From the NCBI GenBank assembly GCA_013334325.1, contig JAAXXT010000001.1:1-64000 (forward strand): 64,000 nt of DNA, in the 5' to 3' direction. Made by a program: the position numbers and the translations under genes. The notes under the pieces are model-generated. The model had not been told where the DNA came from. It ran no database searches and saw only the letters and a program-made list of their open reading frames with translations. Origin of the DNA: Erysipelotrichaceae bacterium. GTDB lineage: Bacteria > Bacillota_I > Bacilli_A > Erysipelotrichales > Erysipelotrichaceae. This document shows positions 8,565 through 11,337 of the stretch, one piece after another. Positions within the stretch are counted from its first letter, which is position 1; each line of letters starts with the position of its first letter.

Positions 8565-9143
8565 TTAAAACAAGGATATTTGTGCGGCTTGGCTTTCGTA
8601 AATCAAGTCGATCTGTTTTAGATTTCTGAAATCTTCGAGTAAACTGGCCCCATCATCGATGTATTTCTGTAGATAAGCTTCTGGGATAAATAAAGGAACA
8701 CGAGTATGCAGTTTCCTAAAATCGCCTTCAGCTTCATCGGTTAAGATCGCAAAGGTAGGAATCTCCGTGCTGTCATCATAAAGTCCAGCCATATAAAGTG
8801 GTTTTGAAGATGGATCAGTGACTAAATTTTTTTGTTTGTTTTTATCCCATTCAAAGAAAGCATCCGCTTTGATCAGACAACGTCGATAGTTTAGATGTTC
8901 TTTGAAGAAAGGGGAGTCTTTAACGCTTTCACTACGGGCGTTGATGATTAAACCTTTGTCATCCCATTTCTTAAGGCCCCAACGCATGATCATCGGAGTA
9001 CCTGGAGCACTCAGTACAATCGTTTTTTGAGAAGGGAAGACTTCTCCTAATGAAAGATCATGAGTATCGCTTAGATTGAGTTGTTGGATCCAATCATGTA
9101 GCTCTTCATCGTCGTTTTGTTTAAATAAATATCTTCCACACAT
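8565..9143 (-). CDS. SRAP-domain protein (HMCES/YedK family)
   Basis: SRAP proteins form a covalent thiazolidine adduct with abasic sites in single-stranded DNA through Cys2, protecting them during replication. The start is placed at 9143 so that the protein begins Met-Cys-Gly-Arg-Tyr, leaving Cys2 exposed as the chemistry requires; AAGGAG lies 7 bases upstream. Further family landmarks are WGLKKWDDK, the INARSES box (Asn-Ala-Arg-x-Glu), an AFFEWDK motif with the catalytic Glu, and a His in KLHTRVPLF. Length 192 aa. It is last in a three-gene operon with a Y-family polymerase, separated from the 82-aa gene by a single base, consistent with a role in lesion tolerance. Confidence 0.92.
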   Translation of the reverse strand: MCGRYLFKQNDDEELHDWIQQLNLSDTHDLSLGEVFPSQKTIVLSAPGTPMIMRWGLKKWDDKGLIINARSESVKDSPFFKEHLNYRRCLIKADAFFEWDKNKQKNLVTDPSSKPLYMAGLYDDSTEIPTFAILTDEAEGDFRKLHTRVPLFIPEAYLQKYIDDGASLLEDFRNLKQIDLIYESQAAQISLF

Positions 9144-9144
9144 A

Positions 9145-9393
9145 TCAAGCTCCTTGTCCTTTACTTTCAATAAACCAACGGTCTTCTTCTAAAAAAAGAT
9201 AGCGTGCTTGTCCTTGGATATAACAGGTATAACGAATTCCTGTTCCTCCAGCGATCGTAGATGCAGCGCGTGTGATCTGAGTGATCTTATCTATCGTATA
9301 TTTTACACCATTCGCCCATACGATAGCCAATGGTCTGATCTGACCTTCTTTACTGTGTTGTAAGATGACATCGACATATATTTTTTTTGCCAT
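9145..9393 (-). CDS. Small conserved-looking protein in the polymerase/SRAP operon
   Basis: I do not recognise this 82-aa protein with confidence. It is basic and predicted beta-rich: a short strand (KKIYVDVILQH), then PLAIVWANGVKYTIDKI, a Gly/Thr-rich turn, and a C-terminal YLFLEEDRWFIES. The layout is that of a small beta-barrel, and it weakly recalls the small DUF6504-type proteins found beside DinB in other bacteria. AAAGGAT lies before ATG 9393 inside the end of dinB. It sits 5 bases after dinB, and its stop is one base from the SRAP start, so all three are translated together. An accessory or regulatory role for the polymerase is an inference from position only. Confidence 0.75.
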   Translation of the reverse strand: MAKKIYVDVILQHSKEGQIRPLAIVWANGVKYTIDKITQITRAASTIAGGTGIRYTCYIQGQARYLFLEEDRWFIESKGQGA

Positions 9394-9398
9394 AGTGG

Positions 9399-10646
9399 TT
9401 ATCCTTTAAAGTAAGATTCTGGAAAAATGACATGATCCTGTTTGGGATTGAATTGAGAGAGTAGGGGATCTTCTTTCATCATCAAGCGCTGAACACTGTT
9501 GAATCCATAACGTTCACGAATCACATCGATGGTATTTTCGAGATTGAGTGCTCTTTGATGGGCAACTTGATCAGTGAAGAGATCCAATTGAATTGGAAGT
9601 TCTATCACGCTAAGATCGCTCGCCTTGACACCAATACTGCGTAAAGGGGTTGTAAAATCAACGTTTTTATCGAAGAGCCCCATGGCTGCATGAGCGATAT
9701 CATCACTAAGATGGGTGGCTTGGCTCAGTTTGATTTGACGAGTAAAGCCTTTGAGATGGATATCTCTTACCCCAATACTGATTACACTGGCCATTAAATG
9801 GGCTTCTTTTAAACGAGCAGCGACACTTTCCGCTAAGATGTAGGTTACGATCTTCACGTCTTGAAGCGACCGTAGATCGCGAGGACAGGTCGTAGAATTC
9901 CCAATCGATTTAACCAAAGGTTCGTAGTGTTGGACAGAAACAACACTGTTTTCTTCTCCATTAGCGAAACGCCATAAAACCTCTCCCCATTTACCTAAAC
10001 GACGTTTCAATACAGCGACTTCTGTTGTGGCACAATCACCGATGGTATAGATCCCAAGTAAATGTAATTTTTGAGTGGTTGCTCTACCCACATAAAGCAG
10101 ATCTTCTATAGGAAGGGGCCAAACGATCTCTTTCATGTTCTCGCGAGTGATCTCGGTGGTCGCATCTGGTTTCTTATAATCAGATCCTAGTTTCGCAAAG
10201 ACCTTGTTGAAACTAACTCCTACCGAGATGGTTACCCCTAATTCAAGTTTTACTCGTTCTCGAATGGCATCCGCTAACGCTCTAGGAGTTCCAAAAAGAT
10301 GGATGCTTTCGGTAACATCGATCCATACTTCATCGATCCCAAATGATTCAATCTTATCGCTATAATCTGCATAAATAGCTCTCACCATTCTCGAAAAACG
10401 TAGATAGTGAGAAAAATTAGGTTTAACCAGAATAAGATCAGGACATTTCTGTAAAGCTTGCCACAATGCTTCGCCCGTGGTAACGCCTGCTTTCTTAGCC
10501 AATTGATTTTTCGCCAAGATGATACCGTGACGTTTCTCAACATCACCACCTACCGCCATAGGGACATTGCGGTATTCTGGATGATGCAAACATTCTACTG
10601 AGGCATAGAAACTATTCAAATCGCAATGTAATATGACTCTGTCCAT
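9399..10646 (-). CDS. dinB: Y-family translesion DNA polymerase (Pol IV/UmuC-like)
   Basis: Error-prone polymerase that bypasses lesions. The 415-aa sequence starts MDRVILHCDLNSFYASVE with the first metal-binding Asp and has the second catalytic motif SFGIDEVWIDV near residue 105. Palm/fingers, thumb helix-hairpin-helix (LLYVGRATTQKLHLLGI) and little-finger domains follow in normal order. A sliding-clamp binding motif QLDLF lies near residue 350. SD AGGAGA precedes ATG 10646. It is the first gene of the operon with the 82-aa and SRAP genes and is read divergently from the LexA-like repressor, whose likely operators lie in the shared promoter. The symbol is family level; it could equally be called UmuC-like. 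Confidence 0.93.
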   Translation of the reverse strand: MDRVILHCDLNSFYASVECLHHPEYRNVPMAVGGDVEKRHGIILAKNQLAKKAGVTTGEALWQALQKCPDLILVKPNFSHYLRFSRMVRAIYADYSDKIESFGIDEVWIDVTESIHLFGTPRALADAIRERVKLELGVTISVGVSFNKVFAKLGSDYKKPDATTEITRENMKEIVWPLPIEDLLYVGRATTQKLHLLGIYTIGDCATTEVAVLKRRLGKWGEVLWRFANGEENSVVSVQHYEPLVKSIGNSTTCPRDLRSLQDVKIVTYILAESVAARLKEAHLMASVISIGVRDIHLKGFTRQIKLSQATHLSDDIAHAAMGLFDKNVDFTTPLRSIGVKASDLSVIELPIQLDLFTDQVAHQRALNLENTIDVIRERYGFNSVQRLMMKEDPLLSQFNPKQDHVIFPESYFKG

Positions 10647-10665: not shown

Positions 10666-10694
10666 ATTTTACTTGAAAAATATTCAAGTATCAA
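10666..10694 (-). promoter_or_regulatory. dinB operon promoter
   Basis: On the minus strand TTGATA (10689-10694) and TAAAAT (10666-10671) are separated by 17 bases, about 20 bases before the dinB start, which has an SD. The 17-base spacer is almost exactly filled by the first palindromic operator, so a bound repressor would block RNA polymerase. Confidence 0.75.
10671..10689. promoter_or_regulatory. Palindromic operator 1 of the LexA-like repressor
   Basis: ACTTGAAAAATATTCAAGT: perfect 7-bp arms ACTTGAA/TTCAAGT around AAATA. An identical copy starts 29 bases downstream. It lies in the dinB promoter spacer. Assignment to the adjacent HTH/S24 repressor is inferred from position. Confidence 0.8.
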
Positions 10695-10699
10695 GTACT

Positions 10700-10718
10700 A
10701 CTTGAAAAATATTCAAGT
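10700..10718. promoter_or_regulatory. Palindromic operator 2 of the LexA-like repressor
   Basis: Second identical 19-bp palindrome. It contains the -35 hexamer and most of the spacer of the repressor's own promoter, so autoregulation is expected. Between the two copies is another perfect inverted repeat (TCAAGTA-C-TACTTGA, 10691-10705) that supplies extra half-sites. Confidence 0.8.
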
Positions 10719-10730
10719 ATAATTTATAAT
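10702..10730 (+). promoter_or_regulatory. Promoter of the LexA-like repressor gene
   Basis: TTGAAA (10702-10707) and a consensus TATAAT (10725-10730) are separated by exactly 17 bases. The predicted start of transcription (about 10737) is only a few bases before ATG 10741, and no SD is present, so the mRNA is essentially leaderless. Confidence 0.8.
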
Positions 10731-10740
10731 AGATTCTGTC

Positions 10741-11337
10741 ATGATCAGCTTGCACGAAAAACTAAAACAACTTAGAAAAGAACGTGGTCTATCTCAACAA
10801 GATCTGTCTTTTCATTTTGGCTATAAATCCTTTACCACGATTCAAAAATGGGAAGATGGCTCATCTTTACCACCCACTAAGATATTGACTCAACTGGCTG
10901 ATTTTTATCATATATCGGTTGAAGAGTTGATGAGTACTGAACGTAGAGTAGCGATACCTATTTTAGGAACAGTAAGAGGTGGTCCTCTTCGATATGCTTC
11001 TCAAGAATTTAAAGGATTAGAATATGTCGATGAAAAAGAAGGCTCTCCAGAAGAACACTTCTATTTAGAAGTCATAGGGGATTCTATGATCAATGCGAGA
11101 ATCTATCCTGAAGATCTAGTCTATGTCCATCGTCAAGATCAAGTTGAAAACGGATCCATTGCAGTTATCTTAGTCGGAGAAGAAGCAACCATAAAACGAG
11201 TCTTTTATGAAGAAGATAAATTGATTCTTAAACCAGAAAATCCTAAGTATCAAGCCATGATCTATACTCAAGAAGAATGTGAAACCAAACCCATTCGAAT
11301 CCTTGGGAAAGTCATCCACTGTAAAATAAAACTGTAA
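10741..11337 (+). CDS. LexA-like repressor: XRE-type HTH plus S24 self-cleaving peptidase domain
   Basis: Probable DNA-damage-responsive repressor. Residues 1-65 are an XRE/Cro-type helix-turn-helix (LRKERGLSQQDLSFHFG), not the winged helix of canonical LexA. The C-terminal half is an S24 domain with the catalytic pair Ser115 (in VIGDSMI) and Lys152 (in ATIKRVF). The likely self-cleavage site is Gly80-Gly81 in TVRGGPL. The domain order resembles HdiR or phage CI-type repressors. Length 198 aa. It is divergent from the dinB/SRAP operon and shares two perfect palindromes with it, so control of both transcripts is inferred. A RecA-stimulated cleavage response is the usual mechanism of this family but is not shown by sequence alone. 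Confidence 0.9.
   Translation: MISLHEKLKQLRKERGLSQQDLSFHFGYKSFTTIQKWEDGSSLPPTKILTQLADFYHISVEELMSTERRVAIPILGTVRGGPLRYASQEFKGLEYVDEKEGSPEEHFYLEVIGDSMINARIYPEDLVYVHRQDQVENGSIAVILVGEEATIKRVFYEEDKLILKPENPKYQAMIYTQEECETKPIRILGKVIHCKIKL

Follow-up and report, generated by a model that had tools for sequence, protein, structure and literature searches.

The stretch of DNA analyzed here (the window, 64 kb) belongs to a 1.95-Mb genome in 51 contigs; the named genomes closest to it are MAGs of uncultured Erysipelotrichaceae. On its minus strand lie dinB, encoding a 415-aa DNA polymerase IV / Y-family translesion polymerase (9399..10646), a gene for an 82-aa dinB-linked protein (9145..9393), and a gene for an SRAP protein (YedK/HMCES-type, SOS-response-associated peptidase; 8565..9170), whose listed ORF begins at a TTG with the conserved MCGRY start shortly inside. 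On the plus strand, separated from dinB by 94 bp, is the gene for a 198-aa repressor that joins an HTH_3 (XRE) domain to a Peptidase_S24 domain (10741..11337). The 82-aa protein matches no Pfam or NCBIfam family, and AlphaFold2 predicts an all-beta structure (pLDDT 86.5) for which no good match turned up in the PDB. Its gene is found beside dinB in nearly all related loci and is at times the sole gene facing the repressor; it probably represents an undescribed family of DinB-associated proteins.

The gap between dinB and the repressor gene holds two predicted operators (annotated without strand), which are identical copies of ACTTGAAAAATATTCAAGT at 10671-10689 and 10700-10718; their starts are 29 bp apart, leaving a gap of 10 bp. 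An earlier note on this DNA had reported this pair, and our sequence search bore it out: the two copies are the sole source of repeated 19-mers in the 64-kb window, and allowing up to 3 mismatches gave 4 matches in the window (the 2 sites on the 2 strands) versus 0.15 expected in shuffles. The note's description of a perfect palindrome does not hold for the whole 19-mer, which has perfect 7-mer arms (8 bp with the flanking T/A) but a non-palindromic 5-bp spacer, AAATA. Its motif, TTGAA-N5-TTCAA, captured the arms and the N5 spacing but stopped short of the full-arm consensus, ACTTGAA-N5-TTCAAGT. This longer consensus occurs at exactly two places in the 1.95-Mb genome, both at the dinB/repressor locus, even if a spacer of any sequence is allowed.

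Both boxes are embedded in predicted promoters, placed as the note had claimed. Box 1 takes up the whole spacer between the -35 and the -10 of the dinB promoter (TTGATA-17-TAAAAT; 10666..10694, minus strand) and shares one base with the -10, and box 2 covers the -35 hexamer, TTGAAA, of the repressor promoter (TTGAAA-17-TATAAT; 10702..10730, plus strand). When we compared 27 non-identical two-box regions with 29-bp spacing, the dinB hexamer positions were conserved: a TAWAAT-like sequence lies beside box 1 in nearly all of them, and the dinB -35 position is taken by TTG-type hexamers, with a one-base shift in one subgroup. In most of the 27, box 2 holds TTGAAN, followed by a TAT-type -10. Because the hexamers are in register with the boxes, occupied boxes would be expected to occlude both promoters. 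There is no Shine-Dalgarno sequence between the repressor's -10 and its ATG (10731-10740), and several close relatives are alike in this respect. With only 10 nt from the -10 to the ATG, the repressor mRNA is probably nearly leaderless, judging from the position of the -10. The lambda cI mRNA made from PRM is leaderless.

The repressor and its likely mode of release

The repressor combines a LexA-like C-terminal half, the presumed sensor, with a different DNA-binding half. Its S24 domain matches PF00717 at 82 bits, and the Ser-Lys dyad (S115, K152) is invariant among its relatives. The best structural matches to its AlphaFold2 model (mean pLDDT 87.8) are LexA structures, including RecA-bound LexA, and they are made through the C-terminal domain, while the modeled N-terminal domain matches the HTH domains of ImmR and DdrO. 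In sequence, that N-terminal domain is of the HTH_3 type only, with no LexA_DNA_bind domain (PF01726), and the LexA family model TIGR00498 scores the protein at 90 bits, below its cut-off of 110.95. Compared with the LexA of Bacillota, then, the repressor shares the C-terminal fold and the dyad but differs in lacking LexA_DNA_bind, in its box and in a Gly-Gly cleavage bond; as the domain, box and bond tests all failed, we conclude that it is not a canonical LexA.

Nor did we find a canonical LexA elsewhere in this genome, which gave zero matches to PF01726. Within Erysipelotrichaceae the matches to PF01726 were only weak and borderline, none of them convincing; the one strong match came from another family of Erysipelotrichales. 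LexA boxes of the Bacillus form, GAAC-N4-GTTC, show no excess in this genome (18, versus 63 in a reversed control), and the single exact site has no recognized repair gene nearby.

The putative cleavage bond of the repressor joins G80 to G81, whereas the documented bond is Ala-Gly or Cys-Gly (PMC8565304). The glycine at P1 raises the question of whether S24 self-cleavage tolerates this residue there, and for this reason we regard self-cleavage of the repressor as likely but not certain. One might instead suppose that the boxes are indeed this repressor's operators but that another protease or signal, rather than RecA-driven self-cleavage, releases the protein. The P1 glycine, which many relatives share (the bond motif is VRGG in 36/80), would fit such an arrangement, and a precedent exists in IrvR, reported as a RecA-independent LexA-like protein of Streptococcus mutans (PMC7101444). 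The P1′ glycine and the Ser-Lys dyad are nevertheless invariant, relatives with the same box have an Ala-Gly bond (VKAG in 32/80), meaning that the bond position is kept, and the partner genes are damage-repair genes, joined by recA in relatives. Taking both sides together, we consider release by another route improbable, though worth keeping in mind.

Conservation of the boxes and of the recognition helix

To see how the boxes fare in relatives, we took 80 loci of related repressors, all in named genomes, and counted a box if it had at most 3 mismatches in its 14 arm positions and lay within 260 bp upstream. The patterns used to gather these loci included QKWEDG, so the set is helix-enriched. 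A box is present upstream of 79 of the 80 related Erysipelotrichales repressor genes, and 65 have at least two; permuted-arm controls at the same threshold averaged 1.9 of 80 loci and never exceeded 23. The loci with a box include those of two cultured relatives, Holdemania filiformis and Anaerorhabdus furcosa (L113, L119). With at most 1 mismatch the real count is 61/80, versus a control maximum of 2. At the one exception (L143), the boxes are found before dinB, and an inserted gene separates dinB from the repressor. The commonest spacing between boxes is 29 bp (29 loci), with 28 bp in 10 and 30 bp in 6. Across loci the TTGA/TCAA core is almost invariant, and the spacer drifts mostly within A/T.

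The recognition helix of the repressor, YKSFTTIQKWEDG, is invariant or nearly so among relatives, while overall identity drops to about 40%. We compared helix and box in a separate set of homologues (17 + 13), gathered without regard to the helix and scored for boxes with at most 2 mismatches. A box was found for 16 of the 17 homologues carrying YKSFTTIQKWEDG and for 0 of the 13 with another helix. Those 13 are 37-45% identical in the C-terminal domain and 20-37% identical in the N-terminal domain. This pattern suggests that the recognition helix and the operator change together, possibly through a domain exchange.

Several repressors with other helices also face dinB and have different upstream repeats. 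Among the loci of this kind (L035-L047, S24 repressors of which many face dinB), GTTGCAT...ATGCAAC is found upstream in L046 and L039 and GTCTCAT...ATGAGAC in L035, a hint that Erysipelotrichales may use several operator types side by side.

Inverted repeats in a divergent promoter could in principle be bound by some other regulator, for example a separate XRE factor, with the S24 protein acting elsewhere. Given the strict concordance of the box with the S24 protein's own recognition helix, the placement of the box at the repressor gene and its dinB partner, and its two-copy restriction in this genome, we find that reading very unlikely. The comparison strongly supports the boxes as operators, and the note's claim that the adjacent repressor binds them and shuts both promoters draws strong support from the conservation, the helix-box concordance, the promoter register and the boxes in trans described below.

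Boxes elsewhere and the extent of the regulon

Boxes are also found away from repressor genes. Three genomes of genus g20 have a dinB that is unlinked from the repressor but still preceded by a box (L071, L209, L210), and in a different genus the gene for the 82-aa protein stands by itself behind a box (L206, L207). Intergenic boxes with at most 2 mismatches precede recA or its operon at 7 of 28 recA loci, in five genera (genomes G022, G163, G009, G122, G074, G032 and G030), versus a maximum of 2 of 28 loci over 300 sets of permuted arms. The selection of the 28 was not blind: the loci came from genomes chosen for having the repressor or the box, and G009 and G122 were first spotted by exact-pattern matches at recA and G032 by a near-exact match, though the other four were not.

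In genus g49, exact boxes lie between uvrB and uvrA (L203:2501-2519 and L204:2501-2519), and the repressors of these two genomes are boxed as well (L246, L247). Since these sites represent two species of a single genus, and the box does not adjoin the apparent uvrA promoter but lies at some distance upstream, they are only suggestive of uvrA regulation. One exact box (L198:2501-2519, in G074) has an XRE regulator and a metallopeptidase-like gene as its neighbors, within a region resembling a mobile element; it may mark an element that uses the host repressor, or it may be there by chance. We set aside other sites in trans (L068, L069, L072, L073, L197, L205, L208 and L211) as probably fortuitous, as they fall within coding DNA or near unrelated genes.

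The genome of the window itself presents a smaller picture. The earlier note had named, as what would refute its reading, an absence of further genomic copies near repair genes together with a failure of the repressor to bind; the first half of this holds, as there are zero further copies in this genome, which makes the circuit here a minimal, local one. The 1 place with one mismatch and the 12 places with two mismatches that we examined have their centers within coding ORFs. Matches with at most 3 mismatches number 210, versus 298 in a reversed control, and with fewer matches than the control and coding positions for the near matches examined, there is no excess of sites in this genome. In the part of its recA region that we examined, every candidate site has at least 4 mismatches; in the window's genus, pgsA and cinA precede recA within a longer run of genes, where no box was seen. 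As the recA operon here is without a box, this genome does not have a full SOS regulon of this type, and its regulon appears, from box positions, to consist of the repressor and dinB-(82-aa protein)-SRAP. The term "non-canonical SOS box" used in the note is fair at the level of the family, where recA operons carry the box in five genera and recA thus seems to belong to the regulon in part of the family.

We also weighed whether the locus might serve the lysogeny of a prophage and not the damage response of the host. The repressor does resemble CI-type repressors of Bacillota phages (30-35% identity). Its neighbors, though, are dinB, the 82-aa gene, SRAP, smc and an ftsY-like gene, a neighborhood kept across genera, and of the two S24 proteins in the genome it is the other that lies beside phage-tail-like sequence (L017). 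On these grounds we reject a lysogeny switch as highly improbable. That the palindromes are instead RNA hairpins or bidirectional terminators, as 8-bp inverted repeats around a 5-base loop might suggest, has next to no likelihood and is likewise rejected, because the boxes sit inside both promoters and upstream of both transcripts, the stems are AT-rich with no terminator called there, the arms are conserved while the loops drift, and boxes also precede unlinked dinB genes and recA operons.

A predicted damage switch and its relatives

Taken together, we think it highly probable that the neighboring HTH-S24 repressor uses the two palindromes as a pair of operators, and that this protein is a phage-type replacement for LexA that DNA damage would release. 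The computation establishes the conserved sites, the promoter register, the helix-box concordance, the sites in trans and the failure to find LexA; from these we infer operator binding, occlusion and RecA-triggered cleavage. A repressor dimer on box 1 would keep RNA polymerase from the promoter of dinB, the 82-aa gene and SRAP, while one on box 2 would close the repressor's own promoter, repression by occlusion being what the embedding of both promoters in boxes predicts. Once DNA is damaged, RecA filaments would prompt the S24 repressor to cleave itself, freeing both promoters, so that the translesion polymerase and the abasic-site protein would be made together with fresh repressor, which would then reset the switch.

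Several known regulators resemble this predicted switch. HdiR of Lactococcus/Streptococcus is likewise a LexA-like S24 repressor; its hosts have no LexA, and it regulates its own gene together with a Y-family polymerase (PMC8565304). The HdiR operator consensus, however, is tttATCAGtTtttCTGATaaa (ATCAG...CTGAT; PMC1592510), unlike ACTTGAA-N5-TTCAAGT, and the genes and lineage also differ. FddR of Francisella is a phage-derived, autoregulated S24 repressor whose divergent genes include dinB in some species (PMC13148647), but it differs from the Erysipelotrichaceae repressor in its operator (GTG-N11-CAC), its Ala-Gly bond and its phylum. The non-canonical LexA of Bacteroidetes, an S24 repressor with a phage-like HTH, runs an SOS regulon through sites with N5 spacers (PMC8565304); these sites are GGA-N5-TCC or CTAA-N5-TTAG, the regulon is wide and canonical, and the protein forms a separate family. 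HdiR (PMC1592510), FddR (PMC13148647), UmuDAb and the Bacteroidetes regulators (PMC8565304) are all S24 repressors distinct from canonical LexA, and each controls a damage response in which error-prone polymerases come first; the predicted circuit would work in a similar way.

With lambda CI and other phage CI repressors, the locus shares the HTH and S24 layout, several operators in divergent promoters and the probable leaderless repressor mRNA; in contrast, no Cro partner was seen at the locus and the repressor faces DNA-repair genes. With regulators of the HdiR/FddR type it has in common an XRE/CI-type HTH fused to S24, a palindromic operator (here predicted from sequence) both in its own promoter and before an error-prone polymerase, and a lineage in which no convincing canonical LexA was found within the family. 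We therefore class the circuit with HdiR, FddR and UmuDAb as a predicted SOS-like switch, one that acts through a new operator. A literature search with little subscription coverage found no paper on an Erysipelotrichales SOS circuit.

More broadly, one can imagine that Erysipelotrichales lost LexA and that a dinB-linked S24 repressor now runs the damage response, its DNA-binding half and operator having been swapped more than once and its sensing half retained. The regulon would then have grown from dinB alone to recA (perhaps also uvrA) in some genera, and these genera would show successive steps by which an SOS regulon is assembled. To our minds the case for this scenario and the case against it are evenly balanced. 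The graded regulons, with dinB only or with dinB and recA, would offer a natural series for following how an SOS network is rebuilt after the loss of LexA. In this mostly uncultured family, the defined operator, repressor and partner genes make the induction of error-prone repair directly testable in these gut and freshwater bacteria.
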